Source: Rhodoligotrophos appendicifer
GTDB taxonomy: Bacteria; Pseudomonadota; Alphaproteobacteria; Rhizobiales; Im1
Assembly (NCBI RefSeq): GCF_007474605.1
Contig: NZ_VHKL01000006.1
Span: 248,001 to 312,000, forward strand
Reading direction: 5' to 3'
DNA: 64,000 bases
This document shows, in pieces, positions 5,816 through 49,238 of the stretch. Below the pieces are notes generated by a model. It did no database searches. It was not told where the DNA came from and saw only the letters and a list, made by a program, of their open reading frames with translations. Numbering within the stretch: the first letter of the stretch is position 1; every line of letters begins with the position of its first letter. A program made the position numbers and the translations under genes.

Positions 5816-6012
5816 GGCCACACCGGCCGGTCAGGAATCCATGCAGCCGTTAAAGTCGAGGCACTCGCGCAGCAGCCGAGCCCTAAAAACGCCCTCCGTC
5901 AGGAGTGCGCCGCGGAGTACCCGAGCAAGACAGAAGGCATCACGGATAGGCTGAGATGTGTTCTTGGGACTCTCGAAAATTTCTCACACCTCCTCAAAGA
6001 ACGGCGGCGGCT

Positions 6013-6744
6013 TCAGAAGGACAGCGCATCCTCCAGCCCATCCTGCTTCTGCCCGCGCGCCACGATCTGCAGCATGCCATCGCGCAGCGGCCGTTGCAGC
6101 GCGGCCGCCTCCGACCAGTCCGCCCGCATCCAGACATCGCGCTCCTCAGCGGTGGTGAGGATCACCGGCATGGCTTTGGGGTGGATGGGCGCCACCTCTG
6201 CATTGGGCTCCGTGGTCAGGAAGCCATAGAGGTCGCAACTGACCTCCCCCTCCTTCACCTTGCGCACACAGGTCCAAGGCGTCCAAAGCCCGGCGAAGAA
6301 CGCCAGCGGCCGGCTCTCGTCGAAGGCAAACCAGATGTCACCGCCCGCTTCGGCATTGAACTCTGAGAAGCTCGTGAACGGCACCAGGCACCGATTCTCG
6401 CGCCCAAGCCAGCGCCGCCAATGCTGGCTGCCGACATTGCGGATGTTGGTCGTGCCCTTGTCGGGCTCCCTCCGCAGCAGCTCCTTGAAATCGACGGCCT
6501 GGCCCTTGGCCTCCAGCTTCTGCGCCCGCCTTTGCGTGGCCTCCATGAGCGCCCTTTGCGACGACGGCATGCCCCAGCGCGCCATGACCATCTCCAGGCC
6601 TTCCGGCGCGTTGCGGATGATGGGGGCCGAGTAATCCGGAAAGATCCCTGGCAGCGGCGGCAGGTTCCCCGTGCCGTCGCGCCAAGGGCGGATCAGCTCG
6701 TTGATCGCCTGCTGGCCCTTGGTCTGGCTGTAGAGGTTGCACAT
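6013..6744 (-). CDS. SRAP-family (YedK/HMCES-like) SOS response-associated protein
   Basis: 243 aa. Family members form a thiazolidine crosslink with abasic sites in single-stranded DNA through Cys2, which is present after Met removal (MCNLYS). Other family positions are visible: Asn in NIRNVGSQ, the glutamate region [12 protein letters not shown] and the histidine in [22 protein letters not shown] departs from the common RCLIPADGFYEW but keeps Glu. It ends convergently with the CAP gene; the gap at 5816-6012 holds nothing I recognise. Its start is 5 bases from the end of the next minus-strand gene, so the two may share a transcript. Confidence 0.92.
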
Positions 6745-6749
6745 GACGG

Positions 6750-7580
6750 TTACCGATCGTAGTCCGCCATATAGGACGTGGCCTCAGCTGCCGACAAGGC
6801 GTCGGCGGCATAGGTGAATGTCCCCTTTTCCTTCACTTCCCGAGCAGCGCGCATGAAGCCGCCAAGGGCAGCGCGGGCCAGCGATCCGCCGACACTGATG
6901 CGCTTCACGCCGGCATCCTCGAGCTGGGCGACGGAAAATGAGGGGCCCGACAGGCCCATGACCACATTGACCGGACAAGTCACGGCCGAACACACCGTCC
7001 TGATGGCCTCGAGGCCGGGGAGCCCGGGGGCGTAAACCACATGCGCGCCGGCCCGCTCGAAGGCCTGAAGACGGCGAATGGTATCCTCCAGATCCGGTCT
7101 TCCATGCAGGAAGTTTTCCGCCCGCGCCGTCAAAATGAACGGACGGTTTCGCGCCTGTTCCGCCGCAGCAGCCACTCTCTCCACGGCGAGGGCGAAGTCG
7201 AAGATGGGCCTGTCCGGATCGCCGGTCGCATCCTCGATGGAGCCGCCCACCAGCCCGATCTCGCTGGCCAGCGCGATGGTCTCCGCACAGGCTGCCGGCT
7301 CTGATCCGAGTCCGTCCTCGAGATCGGCGGAGACAGGCAAATGCGTCGCCTCAACGATGTCTTTGGCATTTCGCAGGACCTCGTCCCGCGACAGGGCTGC
7401 CGCTGAATCTCGTCGTCCGATGGAAAATGCAAAGCCGGCGCTGGTCGTGGCCAGGGCTTCGAAGCCCAAGGCCGTCAAGATCCGAGCCGACCCGGCGTCC
7501 CAGGGATTTGGGATGACGAAGGCACCCGACCGCGTATGCAGGCTCCGGAACCGCTCGAACTTCTCTTGCGACATTGTCAT
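6750..7580 (-). CDS. Isocitrate lyase/phosphoenolpyruvate mutase family enzyme
   Basis: 276-aa putative C-C or P-C bond lyase with a TIM-barrel fold. Motifs: [13 protein letters not shown] near the N-terminus, the metal-binding block [15 protein letters not shown], and [10 protein letters not shown] with the family Arg/Glu. Length fits the oxaloacetate-decarboxylase/PEP-mutase-like group. The canonical KKCGH catalytic loop of isocitrate lyase is absent, so isocitrate lyase activity is unlikely. Start is ambiguous between the ATG at 7580 and one two codons in, because the leader and SD are duplicated (see 7576-7611). It lies 5 bases upstream of the SRAP gene on the same strand. Confidence 0.85.
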
Positions 7581-7843: not shown

Positions 7844-9316
7844 ATGTCGCTCATCTCGAGTAGGCTTCTCACCGAACCCGCGCCCCTGTCTTGGATCGTC
7901 CATCAGCGCTGGCATCCCTGGCTCGTCCTTGGGCTGGTCTGCGTGGGCGCCTTTGTCGGCCAGCTCGATGCCACCATCGTCCAGCTTGCGCTTCCGTCCC
8001 TGGGTGCGACCTTCGATGCTCCCCTCCAGCATGTCAGCTGGGTCGCGCTGGCCTATCTCCTGGCCTTTGCCTCGTTCCTGCCGATCTTCGGTCGCCTCTG
8101 CGAGATGTTTGGCCGAAAAAGTCTCTATATCGTGGGCTACGCCCTCTTCATTGTCGCAAGTGCCCTTTGCGGTTTGGCCGCGACATTGGAGCAATTGCTG
8201 CTTTTCCGCGTCCTGCAGGGGATCGGCGGCTCTCTGCTGGGAGCGAACTCGATCGCCATTCTGGTTGCGACCGTACCGACGGAGGCGCGGGGCCGGGCGC
8301 TCGGATATTTCGCGGCGGCACAGGCAATCGGCATGAGCGCAGGGCCCGCCCTGGGCGGTTTCATCCTGGCGAATCTCGGCTGGCGCTGGATCTTCTGGGT
8401 CACCGTCCCCTTCGGCGCGCTCGCCATCATCATCGGTTGGCTGGCACTGCCGCGCTCGACGATCGGCGCCCGGAAATCCTTCGACTTTGGCGGTGCATTG
8501 CTGATCGGTCCGGCCTTGATCCTGATCGTGGCGACCTTGAACCACATGTCGCATTGGGGCCTGTTCTCCCCCGTCACACTGGGCAGCTTCAGCCTGGCGG
8601 CCTTGCTCCTGTGGCTTCTGGCGCGACAGGAGCGCGCCTCATCCTCGCCCCTCATCGATCCGCGACTGTTTCAAAGCCCGTCCTTTCGCTGCGGGACCCT
8701 GGCGGTGATCCTTGCCTATGCTCTGCTGTACGGAACGTTTTTCCTCATGTCCTTCGCTCTGGGCCACGGCTATGGCGAGCCACTTGCCGAAGTGGGCCTG
8801 CGCCTGGCCATCGTGCCCGTTGCCATTGGTCTCACCGCTCCTTTCAGTGCGCGCATCAAGGATCGCATGGGTGAGGGGCTGATAAGTGTCGTCGCCATGC
8901 TGCTTTGCGGCCTCGGCGTCACGATCATGATGCTCTCGGTGGGGGTCTCCCCCAACCACCGGCTGCTCGACACCATGGCCTTTACATTGATCGGCATCGG
9001 CCTCGGCTTGTTCATTGCCCCCACCAACAATTGGACCATCGCGTCCGTCCCTGCCGAGCTTGCGGGCGCGGCCGGCTCGACCCTCAATCTGATGCGGGTC
9101 CTGGGAACCAGTCTCGGCGTAGCCGTCGGCGCGACGACATTGGCGTGGCGCTTGAGTGAAGTCACGGGCAAGGATCGCGATTGGCTCACGGCCGACAGTG
9201 AAAGCCTGCTGACCGCGGTGCATGAAAGTCTTCCGGCATTGCTGGTGATCGCCGTGGCGGCCGCCCTGGTCGCCTGGCGAGGAGCACCCGCCGGCAAGGC
9301 GGCACAGCTCACTTGA
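7844..9316 (+). CDS. MFS drug exporter, DHA2 (EmrB/QacA) family
   Basis: 490 aa with about 14 hydrophobic helices, typical of 14-TM DHA2 proton antiporters. Motif A-like and motif C-like sequences are visible: GQLDATIVQLALPSLG in TM1, GRLCEMFGRKSLY in the TM2-3 loop and GPALGGFI in TM5. The ATG at 7844 is taken as the start. No adaptor (EmrA) or regulator lies beside it, so the substrate cannot be inferred. The gene is divergent from the PEP-mutase-like gene. Confidence 0.92.
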   Translation: MSLISSRLLTEPAPLSWIVHQRWHPWLVLGLVCVGAFVGQLDATIVQLALPSLGATFDAPLQHVSWVALAYLLAFASFLPIFGRLCEMFGRKSLYIVGYALFIVASALCGLAATLEQLLLFRVLQGIGGSLLGANSIAILVATVPTEARGRALGYFAAAQAIGMSAGPALGGFILANLGWRWIFWVTVPFGALAIIIGWLALPRSTIGARKSFDFGGALLIGPALILIVATLNHMSHWGLFSPVTLGSFSLAALLLWLLARQERASSSPLIDPRLFQSPSFRCGTLAVILAYALLYGTFFLMSFALGHGYGEPLAEVGLRLAIVPVAIGLTAPFSARIKDRMGEGLISVVAMLLCGLGVTIMMLSVGVSPNHRLLDTMAFTLIGIGLGLFIAPTNNWTIASVPAELAGAAGSTLNLMRVLGTSLGVAVGATTLAWRLSEVTGKDRDWLTADSESLLTAVHESLPALLVIAVAAALVAWRGAPAGKAAQLT

Positions 9317-35885: not shown

Positions 35886-35983
35886 GATTCGCCGTCTCTG
35901 AAGAAAAGCCTCCGACATCATCCTTGCCCCGGCACTCTGCGTGAGTGGTATGCACCGTAAACCGAAGTGGTCATTGGCCCAGA

Positions 35984-37648
35984 ATGCGGATGCGCTATGT
36001 CACGCTGGCTGGGACAGAAGAGGCTCTGGGTGTGGATGCCGACTACATCATAATCGGAGGTGGCTCGGCTGGCTGCGTCCTGGCCAACAGGCTGAGCGCT
36101 GATGGCCGCCATCGTGTGGTCCTTTTGGAGGCTGGGGGCAGCGATCTCCATCCCTGGACGCAGATCCCCATCGCCTATGGCAAATGCTTCTATCACCCCC
36201 GGCTGAACTGGCGCTACGAGTCCGCACCCGTTCCAGGCCTCGACGACAGGACCATATATTGTCCGCGCGGCAAGGTCCTGGGCGGCTCCAGTGCCATCAA
36301 CGCCATGGTCTTCATCCGCGGCCAGCGGGAGGATTATGACGGTTGGCGGGATCTGGGCAATGCCGGGTGGGGCTATGACGACGTTCTGCCATATTTCCAG
36401 CGCCTCGAGCGGGATGAGGCAGGGCCCGTATCTTCGCACGCCGAGGGCGGACCGCTGACGATCACTGAGATTTCCGGATCAGCGCATCCGCTCTGCACCG
36501 ATTTTCTGGCGGCCGCAGCTTCGGCGGGGTTGTCCTTCAACCCCGACTTCAATGATGCGACGCAGGAGGGCGCCGGCTTCTATCGGATCACCACCCGTCG
36601 CGGGCTTCGCGTTTCATCGGCAACCGCCTATTTGCGACCTGTCCTTTCACGGCCCAATCTGCAGGTCATCCGGCAGGCGCTTGCCACGCGCATCGTGTTT
36701 GAGGGCAATCGCGCGGTCGCGGTGGACTATTCACGTGGAGGAGACCGCTCCCTGAGGGTCCACGCCCGGCGCGAGGTCGTGGTGGCGGCAGGTGCCGTCA
36801 ATTCCCCCCAGCTCCTGCAGCTGTCCGGCATCGGCGATCCTGCCCTCTTGCAGCGTCACGGGATCGCCGTCCTGCACGCAGCACCGGCTGTCGGCGAGAA
36901 CCTCCAGGACCATCTCTGCATCGACTACCTCTACAAGTCGCGCAAGGCGTCGCTCAACGAGACCCTGAGGCCGCTATGGCGGCGGCCCTTGCTTGCTGCG
37001 CAATATCTCCTGACCCGGAGCGGTCCGCTGAGCTTGAGCGTGAACCAGGCCGGAGGGTTCTTCCGGACGCGCCAGGATCTGCAACGCCCCGACATGCAGC
37101 TCTATTTTTCCGCTCTCAGCTATACGCGGGCCAGTCCCGGCAAGCGTCAGCTCATGCGCCCCGATCCCTTTCCCGGGTTCCTGCTGAGCGTCTCCAACTG
37201 CCATCCGCTCAGCCGCGGCCATATCCGCATCCAGGCCGCCGATCCGTTCAAGCCGCCGATCATCCAGCCGAACTATCTTGCCGACGACCGCGACCTTTCT
37301 GAGCTGGTTCTGGGCGCCCGCTTCATTCGCAGACTGGCCGCGCAACCGGCGCTGGCGGAGATCATCGCGGAGGAATTCCGTCCCGGCATCGAGGTCATGT
37401 CCGAGGCAGAGATGCGGGCCGACATCCGCAAACGCGCCACCTCGGTGTTTCACCTCAGCGGAACATGTGCCATGGGCCCGGATCCGCGCAACGCAGTGGT
37501 CGACCCCAGATTGCGGGTCCATGGCGTGCAGGGTCTGCGCATCGTCGATGCCTCAATCTTTCCACGGCTTGTCTCCGGCAACACCAACGCCCCGACCATG
37601 ATGATCGGCGAAAAGGGCGCCGATCTCATCCTGTCCGACCTGCGCTAG
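35984..37648 (+). CDS. GMC-family FAD oxidoreductase (choline/alcohol dehydrogenase-like)
   Basis: About 554 aa. FAD-binding DYIIIGGGSAGCVLANRL, GMC signature 1 GKVLGGSSAINAMVFIRGQ, signature 2 in GAVNSPQLLQLSGIGDP, and C-terminal active-site region SGTCAMGPDPRNAVVDPRLRVHG with the NTNAPTMMIGEK end. Oxidises an alcohol to an aldehyde with a quinone or other acceptor (family). Start uncertain: ATG 35984 or GTG 36032, the latter giving the usual short N-terminus. Its 3' end overlaps the convergent mocR gene by 23 bases. Confidence 0.9.
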   Translation: MRMRYVTLAGTEEALGVDADYIIIGGGSAGCVLANRLSADGRHRVVLLEAGGSDLHPWTQIPIAYGKCFYHPRLNWRYESAPVPGLDDRTIYCPRGKVLGGSSAINAMVFIRGQREDYDGWRDLGNAGWGYDDVLPYFQRLERDEAGPVSSHAEGGPLTITEISGSAHPLCTDFLAAAASAGLSFNPDFNDATQEGAGFYRITTRRGLRVSSATAYLRPVLSRPNLQVIRQALATRIVFEGNRAVAVDYSRGGDRSLRVHARREVVVAAGAVNSPQLLQLSGIGDPALLQRHGIAVLHAAPAVGENLQDHLCIDYLYKSRKASLNETLRPLWRRPLLAAQYLLTRSGPLSLSVNQAGGFFRTRQDLQRPDMQLYFSALSYTRASPGKRQLMRPDPFPGFLLSVSNCHPLSRGHIRIQAADPFKPPIIQPNYLADDRDLSELVLGARFIRRLAAQPALAEIIAEEFRPGIEVMSEAEMRADIRKRATSVFHLSGTCAMGPDPRNAVVDPRLRVHGVQGLRIVDASIFPRLVSGNTNAPTMMIGEKGADLILSDLR

Positions 37649-39167
37649 GAACACAAACGCGCAACGTCGGATGGGCCTGTCTTTGTGCGGGGGAGAGGAT
37701 CTGGGCCAGAACGCCCACCCCGGCCTTGATCTCGCGCGGGCTGCAGGCGCTGAAGCCGAGGACCAGTCCGCTGTTCTCGACGGGCTCCAGGCAGAAGCGC
37801 GAGATCGGCGCCGCAACGATGCCGCGTCGTGCGGCGGCCTCGGCCACGGCCACCTCATCGATCCCGGCGGCAAACCGGCCGATGGTCTGGATGCCGCTCT
37901 CGGCACGCACGACGTCCAGGACGCCCGAAAGATGGTCTCGGGCCTCATCCATGAGAACTTCCTGGCGCTCGGCATAGAGCTTTCCCATGCGCCGGATATG
38001 GGTCGCGAAATGGCCTTCGCCGATGAAGCTGGCGACCACGCATTGCTGGTTTGTGGAGGCCCCTTGCTGGGTCGCGCGCGCCACCCGGTCAAAGGCCTCG
38101 ACCAAGGCCGGGGGCGCCACCATGAATCCCAGGCGCAAGGCGGGGAACAGCGATTTGCTGAAAGTGCCGACATAAATGACCCGTCCCGCCTTGTCGATGC
38201 TCTTCAGCGTCGGCGGCGGCCGTCCTGAATAGAAGAACTCCCCGTCATAATCATCCTCGATGATCCAGGCATCGGCCTGTTCGGCAGCCTGCAGCAACTC
38301 GAAGCGGCGCGACAGGCTCATGGTCACGCCAGTGGGATGCTGGTGCGATGGGGTCACGAAGGCCAGGCGGAAATCGGGAGATGTCCGCAGGCCCTCGGCG
38401 ACGCTGATGCCCTCGTCATCCACTGGGACCGGAACCAAACGCGCCCCCGCGGCGAACAGGCTGTTGCGGGCGCCGATCGCACCAGGGTTCTCGAACCAGA
38501 CCGGGTCTCCCGGATCAAGCAGCATGCTGCCGATCCTGTTGAAGGCCTCCTGCGCGCCGTTGACGATGAACACGCTCTCGGGTTCGCAGAGTATGCCGCG
38601 GTTCAGCCGCAGATGCGCGGCCACGGCGTGGCGCAGCGCCTTGAGGCCCGCGGGGTCCGGATAGCCGAGCATCTGGCCTCGGGAGCCGCGCCAGCAGCGT
38701 GCCGTCAGCCGCGCCCACAGGGCCACGGGGAACGCCTCCAGCGCGGGCATTCCGGTGATGAAGGCGCGATGCTCCGGCAGATGCGCGAGCCGGGGCAGGA
38801 ACTGCTGCGAAGCCCCCAGGGCGATCCGTGCGAGCCGCGCCGGCTGGCGGCCGAGCTCCCCGCCCTGAGGTTCGATCGCGGTGGGCACGTTGACATTCAC
38901 CTCGACGCTCACGAATGCGCCTGCACCCACACGGGAGTCGATGAGGCCTTCGGATGTGAGCTGGTCATAGACGGCAACCACAGTGGTGCGCGACAGGCCG
39001 AGATCCCGCGCCAAAGTCCGGCTGGACGGCAGCCTGGCCCCGGCCGCGATGGCGCCCGACAGAATGGCCTCCCTTAAGGCATAGCTCAGCTGGACGACCA
39101 AGGGCGTGGCTGCGCCCTTGTCCACGGACAGGGCCGGTAGCAGCGCGCCCCCACTATACTTGACCAC
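37626..39167 (-). CDS. MocR/PdxR-type regulator (GntR HTH plus aminotransferase-like domain)
   Basis: 513 aa. The GntR winged helix comes first ([41 protein letters not shown]). A PLP-dependent fold-type I domain follows with [23 protein letters not shown] and the Schiff-base Lys in [12 protein letters not shown]. MocR proteins sense an amino compound or PLP through this domain. It is divergent from the MR-subgroup enolase and near a DAO-type oxidase and polyamine-type transporter. A 49-bp motif shared by its own promoter and the potD-like promoter is its likely operator. Confidence 0.92.
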
Positions 39168-39178
39168 AACCCCTCCCC

Positions 39179-39227
39179 GATTGGCATCGTCTTTTCACGA
39201 GAACGGACCTTAACGCGCAGGCCAATC
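39179..39227 (+). promoter_or_regulatory. Tripartite MocR operator candidate, site 1
   Basis: GATTGGCATC (39179-39188), N16, GGACCT (39205-39210), N11, CCAATC (39222-39227), between the divergent mocR and MR-subgroup enolase genes. The same three blocks with identical spacing recur at 41756-41804. Confidence 0.7.
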
Positions 39228-39286
39228 CGGTCGCAAGAAGAGAGCATCCGCCAGCACAATCTTCGGCCGCGGCCCGAGGACATCCC

Positions 39287-40390
39287 ATGAAACTTCGCTG
39301 CATAGAGACCTTTTCCGACCGGTATGTCGGGTTCGTTCGCATCACTGACGAAACCGGGGCACAGGGCTGGGGTCAGGTTTCGCCATACAATGCGGACATC
39401 ACATCGCAGATCCTGCACCGGCAGATCGCGCCTTGGTCACTGGGCGTCGACACGACAGATCTCGATGACCTCGTGGATCGGATCGAGGAGCGTGAGCTCA
39501 AATTTCCTGGCTCCTATGTCCGCCGCGCCATCACCGGGCTCGACACCGCCATCTGGGATCTCAGGGGCAAGCATGCCGGCAAGCCGGTGGTCGAGCTTCT
39601 CGGCGGCCGTCCCGGCCAATTGCGCTGCTATGCGTCGTCGATGAAGCGGGACATTACACCGGAAGACGAGGCCGAACGGTTCCTCCGCCTCAGGGATCGC
39701 CATGGCTTCGATGCCTTCAAGTTCCGCGTCGGAGCCGAAGCCGGCCGTGATATCGACGAATGGCCGGGCCGAAGCGAAGCGATTGTGCCGACGATCCGCC
39801 GAGCGCTCGGCGACGAGGCCACGCTGCTCGTGGATGCAAATAGTGGTTTCTCGCCGGCACGCGCCATCGAGATCGGCCGGCTGCTCGAGGCGCATGGCGT
39901 GGTTCATTACGAAGAGCCCTGCCCCTATTGGGAACTCGAACAGACCAAGCAGGTCACCGATGCGCTCGACTTGGACGTGACCGGCGGCGAACAGGATTCC
40001 GACTTGCGCATTTGGCGGCGGATGATCGAGATGCGCGCGGTCGATATCGTGCAGCCCGACATCTGCTACGTCGGAGGGGTCGGCCGTATGCTGAGAGTGG
40101 CGCGCATGGCCGAGGCCGCGGGCCTGCCGGTGACGCCGCATGCTGCCAATCTGTCCTTGGTGACGCTGTTCACCATGCATGTTCTGGCTGCGATTCCGAA
40201 TGCCGGGGCTTATCTCGAGCTGTCGATCGAGGGGGCGGATTACTACCCCTGGCAGCAAGGCCTCTTCCGCAACGATCCCTACAAGGTATCCAATGGCACA
40301 GTTTCGATTGACGACACCCCGGGATGGGGTGCCGATATCAATCCGGAATGGCTGGCGCGATCGCGCTACCAGATGAGCAAGCTGGATTAG
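39287..40390 (+). CDS. Enolase-superfamily enzyme, mandelate racemase subgroup
   Basis: 367 aa. Barrel residues: KxR motif FKFRVG, metal ligands Asp (LVDANSG), Glu (HYEEPC) and Glu (TGGEQDS), then Asp in [10 protein letters not shown] and catalytic His in TPHAANLS. The His places it in the mandelate racemase subgroup, unlike the MLE-like enzyme at 33425. It may dehydrate or epimerise a hydroxy or amino acid; substrate unknown. It starts with ATG 39287 60 bases after operator site 1 and is divergent from mocR. Confidence 0.88.
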
Positions 40391-40402
40391 GCGTTGCCTG
40401 AG

Positions 40403-40425
40403 GCCGGAGAGCGATTGTCTCCGGC
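40403..40425 (+). repeat. Hairpin overlapping the oxidase translation start region
   Basis: GCCGGAGA and TCTCCGGC form a perfect 8-bp stem with a 7-base loop. The right arm ends where the GGGGGGAG SD of the next gene begins, so folding could affect ribosome access. Confidence 0.5.
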
Positions 40426-40445
40426 GGGGGGAGTTGAAGACGGTC

Positions 40446-41747
40446 ATGAGCACAGGCTCGCTGTTCACGGATGATTTCAAGCTTTCGCCCTATTGGTGGG
40501 ATGCGACGCCAAGGCCCGAGATATCCCCCGGCGACCTGCCCGAGCGCGTGGATGTTGCGGTCATCGGGTCTGGCTATACGGGGCTTTCCGCGGCCTTGCA
40601 GACCGCCCGGGGCGGGCGGTCGACCCTCGTGTTCGACGCCGAGGACGCAGGCTGGGGCTGCAGCACGCGCAATGGCGGCCAGATCAGCACCAGTGTCAAA
40701 CCCAACCTCGCAGAGCTGACGAAACGCCACGGTCCGCAGACGGCGCGCGCGATTCTATCGGACGGAAGGAAGTCCCTGAAGTGGATCGGCGAATTCGTGG
40801 CGGAGGAGAACATCGAGTGCTCCTTCGGCGTGGTGGGGCGCTTCCATGCCGCCCATAATACGGCAGCCTTCCGCAACCTGACGGAGTCCTTTGCAACGGA
40901 GCCGGAAGAGTTTGAGACGGGCGGCTGGGTTGTGCCGCGATCGGAGCAGAGAGAGGAACTCGGGACGGACGCCTATCATGGCGGCGTGGTCTATCCGCGC
41001 CATGCTGTGCTCGACCCCGGAAAGTTTCACCATGGCCTCCTGGAAAGGGTTCTGCAGGCCGGGGCCGCCATCGCGACCCACTGTCCGGTCACCGGCATCG
41101 AGCGGATGAAGCAAGGCTTTCGGCTGACCACGCCTCGCGGGATCCTCGAGGCTCGCGACGTCGTGGTCGCTACGAATGGCTACACGGGCAAGATCACGCC
41201 ATGGCAGCGTCGCCGCGTCATCCCCATCGGCAGCTATGTCATTGCGACCGAGGAGTTGCCGCCAGGAATGGCCGACCGCCTGTTCCCCAAGAACCGCATC
41301 GTCTCCGATACCCGAAAGGTGGTCTATTATTATCGGCTCTGCTCCGATCGGCGTCGCATTATCTTCGGTGGCAGGGTCAGCCACGGCGAAACCGACCCCA
41401 TCAAGAGCGCAGCCAAGCTCAGGGACGAAATTGTCCGACTGTTTCCGGAGCTCGCAAACATTCGGGTCAGCCATTCTTGGATGGGCCTCGTCGCCTACAC
41501 ATTCGACACGCTCGCCCATGCCGGCAAGCATGACGGGCTCCATTACGCAATGGGCTATTGCGGCTCCGGCGTCGCGATGGCGGGATATCTTGGCATGCGG
41601 GTTGGCCAGCAGGTCCTCGGCCTGCCGGAGGGCCGCTTGGGCGTCGAGGCAGCACCGTTCCAAACCCGCCCGCTCTACTACGGCTGGCCTTGGTTCCTGG
41701 CACCCTCCGTCTCCTATTATCGCTGGCGCGACAGCCGCAACAGATGA
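40446..41747 (+). CDS. FAD-dependent DAO-type oxidoreductase (gamma-glutamylputrescine oxidase-like)
   Basis: 433 aa. The N-terminal Rossmann motif VAVIGSGYTGLSAALQ and the block WGCSTRNGGQIS are typical of OrdL/PuuB-type amine oxidases. The C-terminus YCGSGVAMAGYLGMRVG binds FAD. It probably oxidises an amine or N-substituted amino acid with H2O2 or electron release. The start is uncertain between TTG 40434, close to GGGGGGAG, and ATG 40446. It lies between the MR-subgroup enolase and the PotD-like gene, in the same MocR locus. Confidence 0.88.
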   Translation: MSTGSLFTDDFKLSPYWWDATPRPEISPGDLPERVDVAVIGSGYTGLSAALQTARGGRSTLVFDAEDAGWGCSTRNGGQISTSVKPNLAELTKRHGPQTARAILSDGRKSLKWIGEFVAEENIECSFGVVGRFHAAHNTAAFRNLTESFATEPEEFETGGWVVPRSEQREELGTDAYHGGVVYPRHAVLDPGKFHHGLLERVLQAGAAIATHCPVTGIERMKQGFRLTTPRGILEARDVVVATNGYTGKITPWQRRRVIPIGSYVIATEELPPGMADRLFPKNRIVSDTRKVVYYYRLCSDRRRIIFGGRVSHGETDPIKSAAKLRDEIVRLFPELANIRVSHSWMGLVAYTFDTLAHAGKHDGLHYAMGYCGSGVAMAGYLGMRVGQQVLGLPEGRLGVEAAPFQTRPLYYGWPWFLAPSVSYYRWRDSRNR

Positions 41748-41755
41748 CACAGCCG

Positions 41756-41804
41756 GATTGGCATCCAACACCAGATAAAATGGACCTATAGGTGGATGCC
41801 AATC
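41756..41804 (+). promoter_or_regulatory. Tripartite MocR operator candidate, site 2
   Basis: GATTGGCATC (41756-41765), N16, GGACCT (41782-41787), N11, CCAATC (41799-41804), with outer arms GATTGGCATCCA and TGGATGCCAATC fully complementary over 12 bp. It lies 84 bases before the PotD-like gene. The spacing is identical to site 1. Confidence 0.72.
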
Positions 41805-41888: not shown

Positions 41889-42968
41889 ATGAGATCTCCA
41901 CGAAGAGGCTTTGTCGTTCTCGGGGCGCTGCTGAGCGTTCTCATGGCGAGCACGGCACAAGCCGAGACGCTTCGGCTGTTGACCTGGGGCAATTATGCAC
42001 CCGACAAGGTCATCGAAATGTTCGAGAAGAAATATCCGGACATCAAGGTCGAGGTCACCTTCTCGAACAACGAGGAAATGGTGGCCAAGCTACGGGCGAC
42101 GGGAGGCGCCGGTTTCGATCTCGCCCAGCCGAGCCATGACCGGATTTTCTCGGCTCAGAAGGAATTCAACATCTATAAGCCGATGGATCTGACCAAGATC
42201 GATCTTTCGGTCCTGGACGAGAAGCTGCTGGCCGGGGTCAAGGCGAACACCACGATCGACGGCGAGGTCTACGCCGTTCCCCATGAATGGGGCACCTCCG
42301 GCATCATGGTCGACAAGACCAAGGCGCCGGAAATCAAGAGCTGGGCCGATCTCTGCGATGAGAAGTACAAGGGCAAGACCTCCATGAGGTTGCGCCGAAC
42401 CATCCTGCTCGGCACCGCCTTTGCCATGGGCAAGGATCCCTTCGCGGCCTACGGCAATCTGGACGATTACAAGAAGCTCATGGACGAGGTTGCCGAGAAG
42501 CTGATCGCCTGCAAGGCGATCGTGAAGACCTATTGGAAGGCCGGGGACGACCTGTCGGCGCTCATGCTCTCGGGCGAAGTCATCGCCTCCGAAACCTGGG
42601 ATTCGACGGCCTACAAGCTTTATTCCCAAAACCCCAACATCGTCTTCGTGCCGCCGGAGACGGGCGCATTGGCCTGGATCGACACATTCGCCCTGCCGCG
42701 CAAGGGCGAAGCGGATGAAGCGGCCTACAAATGGATCAACTTCGTCATGCAGCCCGACATTGTCCCGCTGATGTCGGACAAGAGCGGTGCGGTCGTTGCG
42801 GTCAAGGATGGCATCGCGAAGATGCCGGAGGACAAGCGCAAGGCGGTGCAGGCAGCGTTCAAGCCTGAGGACATCGCCAATCTGAAGTTCTTCGCCAACA
42901 TCCCGCCAGGCCTCGAAGACATCGAGGGCAAGACGCTGGAGAGGATCCAGGCCGCCACGGCCAACTGA
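41889..42968 (+). CDS. Polyamine-type ABC transporter, periplasmic binding protein (PotD/PotF-like)
   Basis: 359 aa. Signal peptide ends near TAQAE. PotD-like blocks include LRLLTWGNYAPDKVIEMFEKKYP, VPHEWGTSGIMVD and the C-terminal Ala/Lys-rich end. It binds a cationic or amine substrate in the periplasm (family); the aromatic and acidic contact residues cannot be aligned by eye. It is preceded by operator site 2 and followed by a large stem-loop. Confidence 0.92.
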   Translation: MRSPRRGFVVLGALLSVLMASTAQAETLRLLTWGNYAPDKVIEMFEKKYPDIKVEVTFSNNEEMVAKLRATGGAGFDLAQPSHDRIFSAQKEFNIYKPMDLTKIDLSVLDEKLLAGVKANTTIDGEVYAVPHEWGTSGIMVDKTKAPEIKSWADLCDEKYKGKTSMRLRRTILLGTAFAMGKDPFAAYGNLDDYKKLMDEVAEKLIACKAIVKTYWKAGDDLSALMLSGEVIASETWDSTAYKLYSQNPNIVFVPPETGALAWIDTFALPRKGEADEAAYKWINFVMQPDIVPLMSDKSGAVVAVKDGIAKMPEDKRKAVQAAFKPEDIANLKFFANIPPGLEDIEGKTLERIQAATAN

Positions 42969-42987: not shown

Positions 42988-43022
42988 CTCCGCTTGGACG
43001 GTGCCGTCCCGCCCAAGCGGAG
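42988..43022 (+). repeat. Large stem-loop after the PotD-like gene
   Basis: CTCCGCTTGG (42988-42997) pairs perfectly with CCAAGCGGAG (43013-43022), and GGACGG-TG-CCGTCC is nested inside. It sits in the 128-base gap before the ATPase gene. It probably stabilises or partly terminates the binding-protein mRNA. Confidence 0.65.
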
Positions 43023-43096
43023 TTCAACGCCGGTTCCTTGTTCAGGGTATAACCGAGCCCGGCGTGTCGCGGAATACAAGGGGGCCTGGGGGCAGC

Positions 43097-44179
43097 ATGT
43101 TCGACCTCGAATGTATCGACGTGACGAAGCGCTTCGGGCCTGTGACCGCTGTCTCCGGCGTTTCTCTGGACGTGCCGAGCGGCACCTTTTTCTCCATTCT
43201 CGGCCCCTCGGGCTGCGGCAAGACGACCTTGATGCGCATGATCGCCGGCTTTGAGACCCCGAGCGCCGGCGACATTCGCATCAAGGGCAAATCGGTGGTC
43301 GAGACCCCGCCGAACAAGCGCAACGTGAAGATGGTGTTTCAGCACCTGGCCCTGTTTCCGATGATGGATGTCGGGGAGAACATCGCCTATGGCCTTCGCT
43401 GTCGTGGCGACGGCAAGGCCGATATCGCGCGCAAGGTGAAGTCGGTGCTCGAGCGGGTCGGCCTGCCCGATGCGGCGGAGAGACAGGTCAATCAGCTCTC
43501 CGGCGGCCAGCGCCAGCGTGTCGCGATTGCCCGTTGCATGGTGCTCGAGCCGGACGTCCTGCTGCTCGACGAGCCCCTGGGCGCTCTCGACCTGAAGCTC
43601 CGCGAACACATGAAGATCGAGCTCAAACTACTTCAGAGCCAGTTCGACACCACCTTCCTCTATATCACCCACGACCAGTCCGAAGCCCTCGTGATGTCGG
43701 ATCGTGTCGCCGTGATGAATGCCGGCATCTTCGAGCAGGTGGGCACTCCCCAGGAGCTCTACCATCATCCCCGCAGCAGCTTTGTTGCCGGCTTCGTCGG
43801 TGACAGCAATCGCTGGAGCGGTCGCGTCGTGCGGATCGACAAAGCGGTCTGTCAGATAGAACTCGAGGACAAGACCCGGGTCCTGGCGACGGGCCATGAT
43901 GCGCTGTCCGTCGGTGACCGCGTCGATGTCTTTGTTCGCCCCGAGGCCCTTCGTCTTTCCAGCGAGGAGGCCCAGGACGGTTGCAACCACTTCGTGGGGA
44001 CGCTGGACAGCCTGCTCTTCAACGGTGCCAATAGCCGGCTGCTTGTCCGCACCGCCAGCGGAATGGTTGAGGTTGACAGTCGTGCCCCATCGGACTCGAT
44101 CCCTGCCGCCGGATCCCCTATCGCGATCGCCAGTGCGGTGGACAAGACCCTGTGCTTTCCGCAGCGGGACCTCGCATGA
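43097..44179 (+). CDS. Polyamine-type ABC transporter, ATP-binding subunit (PotA-like)
   Basis: 360 aa. Walker A GPSGCGKTTL near residue 38, signature LSGGQRQRVAIARC, Walker B VLLLDEPLGALD, and a C-terminal TOBE domain (CNHFVGTLDSLLFNGANSR). ATG 43097 is chosen because the upstream frame is not ATPase-like. Its stop overlaps the next permease start at ATGA. Confidence 0.93.
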   Translation: MFDLECIDVTKRFGPVTAVSGVSLDVPSGTFFSILGPSGCGKTTLMRMIAGFETPSAGDIRIKGKSVVETPPNKRNVKMVFQHLALFPMMDVGENIAYGLRCRGDGKADIARKVKSVLERVGLPDAAERQVNQLSGGQRQRVAIARCMVLEPDVLLLDEPLGALDLKLREHMKIELKLLQSQFDTTFLYITHDQSEALVMSDRVAVMNAGIFEQVGTPQELYHHPRSSFVAGFVGDSNRWSGRVVRIDKAVCQIELEDKTRVLATGHDALSVGDRVDVFVRPEALRLSSEEAQDGCNHFVGTLDSLLFNGANSRLLVRTASGMVEVDSRAPSDSIPAAGSPIAIASAVDKTLCFPQRDLA

Positions 44180-45045
44180 ACACGGCAGAGACCCGCCGGC
44201 TGTCTCTGTTCCTGCTCTTTGCCCCCTTTCTGATGTGGATCGGGCTCCTGATTGTCTTGCCGCAGCTTGGCATTCTTGGCGTGTCCTTGCGCGAAAAGCT
44301 GGGGCCGCAGAACTATGCGATCGGCTTTGGCAATTATGCTGACTTTCTGCAGGAGCCCATCTACTGGAACACGCTTCTCAGAACGGCCGTGATGTCGATC
44401 ATCGTGACCGCGCTCGCCCTCCTCATGGGCTTTCCGATCGCCTACTACATTGCCAAGGTGGCCAGCCGGCGCAGCCGTGCCGGCTTGTTCCTGCTGTGTC
44501 TGGTTCCACTCTGGGTCAGTGACCTCGTTCGCGCCTTCGGCTGGATCATCCTCCTGCGCGAGACCGGAATCGTCTCGGTGGCGTTGCAGGCGGCGGGCAT
44601 GACGGACGGTCCTGTGGAGCTACTCTACAACGACGTCACCATCGTCATGGGTCTTGTCTACACCGTCGTTCTGTTCATGATCGTGCCTCTGGTCTCGACC
44701 CTTGACGGCATGGACGACAGCCTGATTGAGGCGGGGCTCAACCTCGGCGGCAATCGGTTCACGGTGTTCCGCCGCATCGTCGTGCCCTATGCCATGCCGG
44801 GGATCGTCGCCGGCTGCATCATCGTCTTCATGCTCGCGGCCGGCAGCTATCTCACTCCGGTTCTGCTGGGCGGCAAGAACAGCATGTGGTTCACCGAGCA
44901 GATCTACAACCAGTTCATCACGCGCTACAATTGGGAGGCTGGCGCCACCTTCGGAATGCTGCTGCTCGCCTTCACGTCCGTGGTTGTCTGGATCGGGCTG
45001 AAGGCGACCGGACAGAGCCTCGGCTCCACGGTCGCGAGGCACTGA
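44176..45045 (+). CDS. Polyamine-type ABC transporter, permease (PotB-like)
   Basis: 289-aa inner-membrane protein with about six helices. The EAA loop is visible as LIEAGLNLGGNRFTVFRRIVVPYAMPG. It starts at the ATGA overlap with the ATPase gene and pairs with the next permease, 2 bases downstream. Confidence 0.93.
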   Translation: MNTAETRRLSLFLLFAPFLMWIGLLIVLPQLGILGVSLREKLGPQNYAIGFGNYADFLQEPIYWNTLLRTAVMSIIVTALALLMGFPIAYYIAKVASRRSRAGLFLLCLVPLWVSDLVRAFGWIILLRETGIVSVALQAAGMTDGPVELLYNDVTIVMGLVYTVVLFMIVPLVSTLDGMDDSLIEAGLNLGGNRFTVFRRIVVPYAMPGIVAGCIIVFMLAAGSYLTPVLLGGKNSMWFTEQIYNQFITRYNWEAGATFGMLLLAFTSVVVWIGLKATGQSLGSTVARH

Positions 45046-45047
45046 CC

Positions 45048-45905
45048 ATGAACGTCGCAGCGCCCCAATCGGCAGTGGCCCGTCGTCTTTACCAGGCCTA
45101 TATGGTGGCCTTCTTCGTCTATCTCGCAGCACCCCTGATCGTCGCGGGCCTGTTTGCCTTCAACGACTCCCTGTTTCCCTCGATGCCCTGGCGCGGCTGG
45201 ACCCTGGACTGGTTCTTCAACGACACAGAGCCCATGCTCGGCCTCTTTCACGACCGCAGACTGCTGGCGTCCATATGGACCTCGGTCAAAGTGGGCGTGG
45301 TCGTTTCGCTGCTCTCCGCGCTGGTTGGCACCTGCAACGCGTTCCTGTTCGAACGTCATGATTTTCCCGGAAAACGATACCTCTATATCCTGATGATCGT
45401 GCCGCTCGTCATCCCCGGGGTGATCATGGGCATCGCCATCCTCGTCTTTGCGAGCCTGATCGCCAATGGCGTCGAGGACGGGCTGGGCTTCGACCTCGGC
45501 ATGCTGCGCCCCGGACTTCCCTTGGTGATCCTGGGTCAGTTCTCTTTTCTCACAACCATCACCTCCCTCATCATCGCCGCGCGGCTGAAGAAATTCGATA
45601 TCGCCCTGGAAGAGGCAGCTCTCAATCTGGGTGCCAGCCGTCCGCGCGTGCTGCGGACGATCACATTGCCCTATTTGGCACCGGCGATCGTCTCGGCATT
45701 CATCGTCGCCTTTCTCGTCTCCTTTGAAAACTTCAACACGACCCTGATGCTCGTTGGCTCGGAAGCGCCTTTGACGATCACCATGTATGACCGCATGGCC
45801 AAAGTCGGCTCGACGCCGGTCCTCAATGCCGTGTCCTTCGTCTTGATGGTGGGGTCGGCTCTTCTCGCGCTGCTGAGCGTCTTCGTGCAGCGTCGCGGCG
45901 ATTGA
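45048..45905 (+). CDS. Polyamine-type ABC transporter, permease (PotC-like)
   Basis: 285 aa with about six helices and an EAA loop LEEAALNLGASRPRVLRTITLPYL. ATG 45048 is chosen; the longer frame runs antisense-like through the PotB gene. It ends the four-gene transporter. A small GGGCG-AGG-CGCCC hairpin (45911-45923) follows and may end transcription. Confidence 0.93.
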   Translation: MNVAAPQSAVARRLYQAYMVAFFVYLAAPLIVAGLFAFNDSLFPSMPWRGWTLDWFFNDTEPMLGLFHDRRLLASIWTSVKVGVVVSLLSALVGTCNAFLFERHDFPGKRYLYILMIVPLVIPGVIMGIAILVFASLIANGVEDGLGFDLGMLRPGLPLVILGQFSFLTTITSLIIAARLKKFDIALEEAALNLGASRPRVLRTITLPYLAPAIVSAFIVAFLVSFENFNTTLMLVGSEAPLTITMYDRMAKVGSTPVLNAVSFVLMVGSALLALLSVFVQRRGD

Positions 45906-46067
45906 GCGCTGGGCGAGGCGCCCTCTGAAATGTGCCAGCTTCGCTTTTTTTCCCGCGTCACCTTCGGAGTCCCTGGACCGGCCCGCCAGCTGTGATACGA
46001 CCTATCAGTTCGCGGAAGTTGCACGATGCACGGTCGTTCTCTCGGCTGCATATGTTCAGGGGTTAAC

Positions 46068-49000
46068 ATGCTCGGATGTTTGGACGCTGCCGGCCGATCC
46101 GGATCGCATCGCGGCCGGAACTCTCTGGTCGCAGCCCTGTTGGGGATTGTGGTCGTCCTTGTCCTTAGCTCTCCTGCAAGTCAGGCTCAGGGTGCCGGCA
46201 GCCCCACCGGGACCATGCGGTCCGAGTTCCGCGAGCCGGTCACCCTGATCAGCAGGGACGGCGTGCTGGAGGTCCGACTGACGGCGCGTCAGGGCGAAGC
46301 CGCCCTGGACACGGTCGCCGGTCCCGTGAAGAATTTCCTGCTCTTCAGCTATGAACTCATCCGCGGCACCGCCTCGAATGGCCAGACGTCGGGCGAGAAC
46401 CTTTACCCGGCGCCGACGCTCCAGGTCTTTCCCGGTGAAAAGCTCATCGTCCATTTGGAGAACGGCCTCAGCGATCTGGCTATCCGGGATTTCTACAGCC
46501 CTCAATACACGGCAACCGGCCAGGACGTTCCGCTCTATCCCATTCAGCTGACATCTGCGCCGCTGAACCTCCATGTTCATGGCCTCCATGTCAGCCCCAA
46601 GGGCAACTCCGACAATGTCATGATCCACATGCCCGCCGGCACGGCGAATACATACACCTATGACGTGCCCAAGAGCATGCCCCAGGGCGTTTACTGGTAT
46701 CACAGCCATCTCCACGGCCTCACGGCGGCGCAGGTCTATCTTGGTCTCGTCGGCATGCTTGCCATCGGTCGCACCGATGGCGGCCTGCCCATTGTGACCG
46801 AAAACAAGATCCCCATCCGCAACATGCTGCTGCAATACAACTACGTCTTCGACCGCGAGGGCGGACAGGAGGATCTCAACAATCCCTATTGGCCGCAATA
46901 TGTCAGCACTCTCGTCCCGCCCGAGAAGGACGAGCTTGCAAGCGGCACCTATCGGCCTTTGATGACGCCGATCAACTTCGACAATGCCAAGCCCGGGGCG
47001 AAATTCATCACGAACTGGTATGCCGGGCCGCTGTCGATCCGCAATTTCCGGGGCCGGATGCAGTTCATCCCCAGCAACCTCGTCCGCTTCACGTCGTTCA
47101 GCGACGACCGGAGCGAGGATGTCCCCGACCGGCCTTCGCTCCCGGACGAGCAGCGCGATGTCCAATTCACCGTGAACGGGCAGTTCCAGCCGGCGATCAA
47201 GAGCAAGGCCGGCCAGACCGAGATCTGGGTGCTCGCGAATGTGAGCGACATCGCCTATATGAACGTCCAGCTCACGGAGACCGCCACGGGCAACCACCCC
47301 AAGATCGCCATCGTGGGCCAGGACGGCAATCCCTATGGCGCCGTTCACACTCCCCCGACCGATAACGGCACCCGCCTCGTCATCCCACCGGCCAGCCGCT
47401 TCGCCATCGCGGTGACGATTCCCGCCGAAGGCGATCTCGTCCTCGAAATTCCCTCCCGCGGCGACGGCGCCAAGACGATCGCCTTGCCGGGTATCGCCTA
47501 CACCAATAACGGCACCGAGAACCCACCCGCCGTCCTCGGCAGTGTCAGCACGCTGCCTGATGTCATCAGCTATGATGACGGCTTCTTCCTGTTCCCGACC
47601 CAGGTCTTGGCGCGTGCCACATCCACCGGAGAGAAGGGCGTGACCACGCCTTTCGTGGAGGGCCAGCCGCTGAACGCCTATACCTCCTTCGTCGAGCTGT
47701 CCGGCGCGGCGCCGGACGTCAAGCGCGAGATCAAGATCGGTGGCGGCTTTCTCAATAACATGGCGAGCCAGGCCGATCCGAAATCCTTCGTCTATGCCTT
47801 TGACGGCGGCGCTTTTCCCAACGTGCCCCTGGTTCAGCCGCGCCTGAACTCGGTGGAGGAATGGACCTTCGTCAACTTCAACAATGACGAGCATCCGATC
47901 CACGTCCATGTGAATGATTTCCAGGTGACCGAATATTTCGATCCCACCACCGGTCTGAGAACCGGCCCGGACAAGTTTGGCGTCGACAATGCGAACGTCC
48001 CCGCACCGACCATGCATTCCGACGAATTCGTGGTTCAGCCCGGCCGTCTCAGCATGCGCACCCGCTTCGATGACTATGACGGCCTCTATGTCATGCACTG
48101 TCATCGCCTGAACCACGAAGACAACGGCCTCATGGCCCTGATCAACGTGATCCCGGAAATCTCCGCCTATGCGGTGGCGGTCCCCGGCGCGGCCGGCAAG
48201 CCTGCCGAAGTGCGAGTCTATGATGGCAATGGCGACAGGCTGCTCGCCACAATCGTGCCCTTCCCCGGCTTCGAAGGCAGTGTGAGCGTCGCCATGGGTG
48301 ACGCGGATGACGACAGTGTCCTCGACTTGGTCGTTGGCACGGGCGCCGGCCGCACCTCCGAGGTCGTCGCCTTTTCCGGCAAGTCGGCGTTCACGGACGA
48401 GATCCTGCGCTTCCAACCCTTCGCCGCCGACGCCCGGGGCGGCATCAGTGTCGCAGTGAGCTCGATCGATGGCGGGACCGGCGACAACATCATCGTGGGC
48501 TCGGGGCCGGGCATGGCCAGCGAGGTCCGCGTCTATGGCGGCAAGCAGGCCTCCGGCGCGGCACCGGACCTCTTCTCGTCATTTGCGCCCTATGAAGGGG
48601 ACACGTCAGGCGTGACCCTGGCGACCGGATTTGTGGATTTCTCCACCGGCCGCAACAGCATCGTCACCGCGCCCGGTGCCGGCACCGAGACCGAGGTGAA
48701 GGTTTTCGCCTTCCCGCTGCTGACGCCGCTCGCAAAGAGTGGCCATGGCATGGCCCATGGCGGCAGGGTGAATGAGCCGATCGAGACCTCGAGTTTCAAG
48801 CCTTATGGTCAGGAATACAAGGACGGCGTCTCCCTGGCCACCGGTTGGCTCGCCGGGGTCTTCGGCGGGGCGAAGCGGATCATCGTCGGGCAGCTTGGGG
48901 GCCGAGGAACGGTCAAGATCTTCTCCAGCGGATCGGCGCTTGACGGGGGACCGTCGATGTATCTGCACAATCCCAATGAGCACGGCCATGGTGCTGGCTT

Positions 49001-49238
49001 CCGCGAGATCGCCAGCTTCGAGCCCTTCGGCGGCGCGCCCGGCAGTCATGTGGCGGCCACGAGCACCGTCTATGGTGCCAACCTGCTGGTGAGCGGCGGA
49101 GCCGCGTCTGGCGCCGGCACCATCGTGAAGTATGACTTTGCAAGGCCCGCTCCCGAGGCGACCACGCTGGAACCTGTTCGCATCGGCGAGGTGGCTGCGA
49201 CTAAACTCACGCAGCCGGCGGTTCTGGCCGGCAACTGA
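46068..49238 (+). CDS. Multicopper oxidase fused to C-terminal FG-GAP-like repeats
   Basis: 1056 aa, putatively exported (signal segment ending SSPASQAQ). Copper motifs are complete: HVHG (169-172), HSHLHG (212-217), HPIHVHV (609-615) and HCHRLNHE (677-684), giving type 1, 2 and 3 sites. From about 720 to 1035 five related blocks follow (for example SVSVAMGDADDDSVLDLVVGTGAG, SFEPFGGAPGSHVAA), resembling FG-GAP/integrin-type beta-propeller repeats. The start is uncertain: ATG 46068 with AGGGG upstream, or ATG 46026. Substrate unknown; metal, phenol or bilirubin-type oxidation are options. Confidence 0.9.
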   Translation: MLGCLDAAGRSGSHRGRNSLVAALLGIVVVLVLSSPASQAQGAGSPTGTMRSEFREPVTLISRDGVLEVRLTARQGEAALDTVAGPVKNFLLFSYELIRGTASNGQTSGENLYPAPTLQVFPGEKLIVHLENGLSDLAIRDFYSPQYTATGQDVPLYPIQLTSAPLNLHVHGLHVSPKGNSDNVMIHMPAGTANTYTYDVPKSMPQGVYWYHSHLHGLTAAQVYLGLVGMLAIGRTDGGLPIVTENKIPIRNMLLQYNYVFDREGGQEDLNNPYWPQYVSTLVPPEKDELASGTYRPLMTPINFDNAKPGAKFITNWYAGPLSIRNFRGRMQFIPSNLVRFTSFSDDRSEDVPDRPSLPDEQRDVQFTVNGQFQPAIKSKAGQTEIWVLANVSDIAYMNVQLTETATGNHPKIAIVGQDGNPYGAVHTPPTDNGTRLVIPPASRFAIAVTIPAEGDLVLEIPSRGDGAKTIALPGIAYTNNGTENPPAVLGSVSTLPDVISYDDGFFLFPTQVLARATSTGEKGVTTPFVEGQPLNAYTSFVELSGAAPDVKREIKIGGGFLNNMASQADPKSFVYAFDGGAFPNVPLVQPRLNSVEEWTFVNFNNDEHPIHVHVNDFQVTEYFDPTTGLRTGPDKFGVDNANVPAPTMHSDEFVVQPGRLSMRTRFDDYDGLYVMHCHRLNHEDNGLMALINVIPEISAYAVAVPGAAGKPAEVRVYDGNGDRLLATIVPFPGFEGSVSVAMGDADDDSVLDLVVGTGAGRTSEVVAFSGKSAFTDEILRFQPFAADARGGISVAVSSIDGGTGDNIIVGSGPGMASEVRVYGGKQASGAAPDLFSSFAPYEGDTSGVTLATGFVDFSTGRNSIVTAPGAGTETEVKVFAFPLLTPLAKSGHGMAHGGRVNEPIETSSFKPYGQEYKDGVSLATGWLAGVFGGAKRIIVGQLGGRGTVKIFSSGSALDGGPSMYLHNPNEHGHGAGFREIASFEPFGGAPGSHVAATSTVYGANLLVSGGAASGAGTIVKYDFARPAPEATTLEPVRIGEVAATKLTQPAVLAGN

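Follow-up and report, generated by a model that had tools for sequence, protein, structure and literature searches.

Two 49-bp elements in the window, which is the whole 64-kb stretch of DNA that was analysed, most probably serve as operators of the adjacent MocR-type regulator and would place a set of breakdown genes and an importer under joint control. This reading, which draws on sequence comparison, is given a probability of about 0.92. Each element is made up of three boxes (A, B and C) and reads towards the genes that it would control, an enolase-oxidase operon in the case of site 1 and a potDABC transporter operon in the case of site 2. The features concerned are listed below.

35945-37648, + strand: GMC (choline-dehydrogenase-like) oxidoreductase, conserved neighbour (family match)
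37626-39167, - strand: MocR-type regulator, 513 aa (PF00392 at residues 29-86, PF00155 at 155-460)
39179-39227, + strand: putative operator site 1, boxes A-B-C, reading towards the enolase gene (exact match, second-best matrix score in the window, orthologous position at 33/34 loci)
39179-39188, + strand: site 1 box A, GATTGGCATC (orthologue consensus AATTGGT.TG)
39205-39210, + strand: site 1 box B core, GGACCT, within AGAACGGACCTTA (most conserved block)
39222-39227, - strand: site 1 box C, CCAATC, inverted copy of A (arm complementarity test)
39287-40390, + strand: enolase-superfamily enzyme (MR_MLE), putative first gene of target operon 1 (PF13378, PF02746)
40434-41747, + strand: FAD-dependent oxidase of the DAO family, putative target operon 1 (PF01266; 43-bp gap downstream of the enolase gene)
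41756-41804, + strand: putative operator site 2, boxes A-B-C, reading towards potD (exact match, top matrix score in the window)
41756-41765, + strand: site 2 box A, GATTGGCATC (9/9 complementary to the C arm)
41782-41787, + strand: site 2 box B core, GGACCT, within AAAATGGACCTAT (alignment and conservation across loci)
41794-41804, - strand: site 2 box C, GGATGCCAATC, inverted copy of A (11-bp perfect dyad, from the sequence)
41889-42968, + strand: PotD-like solute-binding protein, putative first gene of target operon 2 (PF13416; PotD/PotF-like matches)
43001-45905, + strand: PotA-, PotB- and PotC-like ABC transporter genes, putative target operon 2 (family matches; syntenic in orthologous loci)

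Downstream of the transporter, positions 46026-49238 hold an open reading frame of 1070 aa that appears by eye to encode a secreted protein of multicopper-oxidase type.

Two sites in the window

The initial annotation had described two sites with the same boxes and spacers in the same orientation, one in the divergent mocR/enolase promoter and the other ahead of the PotD-like gene. The boxes and spacers are exactly as described, both sites are on the + strand, and the coordinates agree with the placing. Site 1 (39179-39227; GATTGGCATCGTCTTTTCACGAGAACGGACCTTAACGCGCAGGCCAATC) lies within the 119-bp gap between mocR and the enolase gene, and site 2 (41756-41804; GATTGGCATCCAACACCAGATAAAATGGACCTATAGGTGGATGCCAATC) between the stop of the oxidase gene (41747) and the start of potD (41889). 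The spacers between the boxes of the two sites are unrelated, which indicates that the pair is not a plainly duplicated segment.

The pattern GATTGGCATC-N16-GGACCT-N11-CCAATC has these two matches in the 64-kb window, both on the + strand, and none elsewhere in it. In the entire genome of 5,593,515 bp, no exact match exists besides these two, and a reversed control gave 0. The number of matches expected in the window from 100 dinucleotide shuffles is 0, a post hoc figure because the pattern itself was taken from the two sites. When up to two mismatches were allowed in the 15 core bases, with a B-C spacer of 11 or 10, zero mismatches were found genome-wide only in the two sites; every other match had two, and the number of these was not far from that of a control pattern. 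The mismatch scans and a sequence model thus yielded only weak or chance-level extras as further sites in this genome.

A promoter scan of both regions recognised no sigma-70-like promoter near site 1 or site 2, and activation and repression are therefore not separable by position. The scan also returned a terminator-like match that overlaps box C of site 2.

Box layout and outer dyad

Each of the three boxes has a TGG-type core. Boxes A (GATTGGCATC) and B (AAAATGGACCT) form a direct repeat with 22 bp from TGG to TGG, a period that would place both on the same face of the helix, and box C (CCAATC) is an inverted copy of A. The layout is that of a '-> -> <-' operator, with two direct boxes, one inverted box and a conserved TGG or TGT core. 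Its repeats stand at whole helical turns that are constant within the orthologous group: in 18 aligned sites the A-B period is 22 bp, and B and C are 17 or 18 bp apart. At both window sites the B-C spacing is one base longer than in most relatives, and site 1 has CGGACCT where TGGACCT is expected.

An outer GATTGG/CCAATC dyad, also claimed at the outset, is borne out by arms that are complementary and co-vary. In site 2, the dyad is longer than had been stated, extending perfectly over 11 bp (GATTGGCATCC...GGATGCCAATC). Across 59 sites, the complementarity of the A and C arms is 5.85/9 in register, compared with about 1.4-3.3 when the register is shifted. Arms taken from the same site match better (6.25/9, with one base of slack) than arms re-paired between sites (5.71 +/- 0.11; 0/2000 shuffles reach 6.25), indicating that the A and C arms co-vary, a figure that is not a strict probability since sites of one clade are kin.

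For a subgroup of loci whose box A is of CCGG/ACCGG type (L011, L012, L014, L121 and L122), no match was seen at the standard register. In these loci a downstream CCGG-type arm seems to be displaced, which would make this an altered version of the operator within the same regulator group.

Conservation at orthologous loci

The initial annotation had proposed a search of related genomes. This was carried out, and the blocks are present, not absent, in orthologous promoters. Orthologous mocR loci (L003-L015, 52-61% identity) were obtained by scanning a single genome for each species. The divergent enolase gene recurs in nearly all of them, and many also have the oxidase, GMC oxidoreductase, aldehyde dehydrogenase and transporter. 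The mocR/enolase gaps of these orthologues carry a AAARTGGACCTTA block between arms of TTGG/CCAA type.

In the window's own genome, a sequence-only Infernal model found site 1 only, weakly (E 0.01), and neither site at E <= 0.001. The model is too weak on the window sites because of their one-base longer spacer and the CGGACC of site 1. For this reason, a weight matrix that allows both spacings was used, trained on 16 sites from other genomes and on none from the window. On the window, this matrix placed site 2 first (32.3) and site 1 second (29.6), with the third match at 12.0. Applied to 0.99 Mb surrounding mocR genes that are more distantly related, it reached at most 21.4, and this match lies roughly 100 bp from where the mocR gene of a Serratia paralogue starts. 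As a hold-out, 22 further mocR orthologues outside the matrix training were drawn from 398 genomes of the order, and here too the matrix locates sites ahead of the enolase gene. Weaker matches with A-B-C geometry occur near the mocR starts of paralogous regulators (L046:7901, L025:7955 and L030:7962), and these suggest that the layout extends beyond this orthologous group.

Altogether, 35 other orthologous mocR loci were compared (about 49-62% identity; 36 loci with the window). The A-B-C element stands ahead of the enolase gene at 33 of the 34 other loci that have this gene (34/35 including the window), 45-161 bp from the inferred start, and ahead of potD at 20 of the 22 with a close potD (21/23 including the window). 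The exceptions are L010, which lacks a good enolase site, and L012 and L160, which lack an above-threshold potD site. Most sites scoring at least 19 (62/71) precede a cluster gene on the same strand and in the same reading direction, namely enolase (34), potD (22), GMC (3), DAO (2) or potA (1). The remaining nine stand before another transporter, before a non-query gene or next to imprecisely aligned GMC starts. Where gene order changes, sites travel with their genes, for example in L162 and L163, where potDABC-GMC-DAO lies behind mocR. No operator was seen ahead of the GMC gene of the window; one is present for some relatives only, being ahead of GMC in L150 and L164 and adjoining it in L007 and L008.

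Box B is the most conserved block, with a mean pairwise identity of 78% over 34 loci. By the same measure, box A reaches 0.63, B 0.78 and C 0.54, against 0.35-0.39 for the spacers and 0.27-0.29 for the flanks. This contrast is partly built in because the matrix selects boxes, unlike the location of the sites ahead of the same genes.

Some loci depart from the common gene set. In a Pararhizobium assembly, a second operator (L003:12707) lies ahead of a transporter of another type, SBP_bac_5, which points to an importer that was exchanged while the operator was kept. Locus L150 has extra operator copies (L150:5839 and L150:8876) before a TauD-family dioxygenase gene (5886-6758, + strand) and a methyltransferase-like gene (7999-8862, - strand), and the regulon is probably larger there.

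Distribution across the order

The 398 genomes of the order were searched at a threshold of E <= 0.001 with a sequence model derived from the 16 sites. Strong matches were found in 14 genomes, all of which (14/14) are among the 23/398 that have a mocR orthologue; the hypergeometric value for 14 in 23 of 398 is 4e-20, with kinship ignored. Three of the model matches lie outside the mocR cluster. Two of them (G070:C12 and G106:C1) are ahead of an orthologue of the DAO oxidase (59-60% identity), and the third (G120:C13) is ahead of potDABC orthologues (67-75% identity). As these sites in three genomes were found without a positional assumption, they support the oxidase and the transporter as members of the regulon. 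Two genomes of the same genus (G001 and G002) gave no site match and have only mocR paralogues, at about 40% identity or less; without orthologue or site in these, the cluster is patchy in its distribution.

The orthologous loci, the hold-out matrix, the co-occurrence with mocR and the off-cluster sites together support the initial proposal of one regulon for enolase, oxidase and transporter. The sites might instead belong to another regulator common to these genomes, with MocR as an incidental neighbour, given that the pairing of MocR with this DNA is a deduction and that the genome also codes for other MocR and GntR proteins. Nevertheless, such a regulator is improbable, as the element sits in the mocR divergent promoter at nearly all orthologous loci, every site-bearing genome is among those with a mocR orthologue, and both the box layout and the TGG cores are as published for MocR proteins. 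A recent duplication of a promoter segment, or chance, without any regulatory role would fit the two lone copies in one orientation, but it was rejected on the conservation data and is scarcely credible: the spacers are unrelated, the boxes and not the flanks are alike across relatives, shuffling predicts zero matches, and other genomes keep the element ahead of the same genes.

Comparison with known MocR systems

The regulator is a protein of MocR/GabR type, in which a GntR winged helix-turn-helix is fused to a fold-I aminotransferase domain. According to the main text of Suvorova and Rodionov (2016, PMC5320631), the number of boxes in known MocR motifs ranges from two to four, and two direct boxes with one inverted box are the commonest arrangement (32% of regulons). 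The cores of these operators are mainly TGT or TGG, and direct repeats lie two or three helical turns apart (main text of PMC5320631). With its 22-bp direct repeat and inverted box, the window element fits the '-> -> <-' operators described there. It differs from the regulons of that main text in its target genes, an enolase/mandelate-racemase target being unmentioned in it.

For the rhizopine MocR, the moc-box AAAGYGGYTCT occurs as direct repeats with a 13-bp spacer (PMC10107442). As in that system, a direct repeat with a GG core is present here both in the divergent promoter of mocR and in that of a second target. Among relatives, box B (AAAGTGGACCT) agrees with the moc-box at 9/11 positions and box A (AAAGCGGTCTC, in L014) at 8/11, at best. 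The window boxes agree at 5-8/11 and do not form two moc-boxes with a 13-bp spacer, their period being 22 bp compared with 24 bp for rhizopine MocR. In addition, a third, inverted box is conserved here, the targets differ, and the protein falls under the family cut-off: rhizopine_MocR (NF052281) is its best NCBIfam model, at 480.9 bits with a cut-off of 650.

A likeness to the TauR repeat, CTGGACYTAA, which is found as two direct copies, had also been noted at the outset. It stands for box B alone, as judged by eye, and not for box A, the inverted box C or the targets. The boxes resemble the moc-box at least as well, and the moc-box is the better-documented parallel. That the sites are TauR operators, and hence mark a taurine regulon, might be argued from box B (orthologue GTGGACCTTA 8/10 and window site 1 ACGGACCTTA 7/10, by eye) and from the TauD-family gene with an operator in one relative (L150). 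This identity was rejected on the targets and is very hard to sustain: box A fits CTGGACYTAA poorly, the third box is inverted, and the conserved targets are enolase, DAO, ALDH, GMC and Pot-type transporter genes, not those of taurine degradation.

Bacillus PdxR and GabR share the protein architecture (PDB relatives 4n0b and 7pq9), the divergent promoter, and direct or mixed repeats, and differ in target genes and box sequences. Although the protein passes the NCBIfam PdxR model (NF052282; 392 bits against a cut-off of 320), its identity as a PdxR with sites serving vitamin B6 synthesis was rejected on targets and has next to no likelihood, since rhizopine_MocR scores higher, if below that model's cut-off, and no pdx gene of B6 synthesis or salvage was seen among the conserved targets of the orthologous loci, which are enolase, oxidases, ALDH and transporter.

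Proposed mechanism

Published work on MocR proteins describes a divergent promoter, frequent autorepression and a head-to-tail dimer. It also shows that GabR activates its target operon with PLP and ligand, and that PLP binding shifts the preference of PdxR from direct towards inverted repeats. By analogy with these characterised regulators, a head-to-tail MocR dimer may occupy the boxes, using A and B and perhaps A and C. At the divergent promoter, MocR would probably repress its own gene and, with PLP and a pathway compound, probably turn on the enolase-oxidase operon; at the second site it would control potDABC. With MocR operators at both operons, uptake and breakdown of one substrate, probably nitrogen-containing, would be switched together.

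Enolase-superfamily enzymes act on carboxylates. Together, the GMC alcohol oxidoreductase, the amine-type oxidase, the enolase, the Pot-type importer and, in many relatives, an aldehyde dehydrogenase suggest that the substrate is a nitrogen-containing alcohol or acid. Very close relatives of the enolase in the PDB (3u4f, 3tcs, 3t8q and 3t9p) are named merely as members of the mandelate racemase/muconate lactonizing family or as a putative racemase, and literature searches on the enolase cluster and on these four codes returned nothing relevant.

A more speculative and rather unlikely extension is a two-state switch, in which the MocR dimer would read the direct pair A+B in one form and the inverted pair A+C in another. 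The forms would differ by the presence or absence of a PLP-bound inducer, and the choice of box pair would set repression or activation. If true, such a switch would account for the joint retention of both geometries in several dozen sites.

Significance

In summary, the type of operator is already known, and the interest lies in the target set and in the collection of operators. The regulon is conserved in genomes of alphaproteobacteria and in some assemblies that carry a Burkholderiales label. It marks an uncharacterised set of enzymes, an orphan pathway, whose enolase has four close structural relatives named by family alone. Automatic naming of this regulator as PdxR, by way of the NCBI PdxR model, would probably mislead. 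The several dozen natural variants of the operator, in which direct and inverted boxes occur together, provide good material for learning which of the boxes are read by a MocR dimer in each of its two states.
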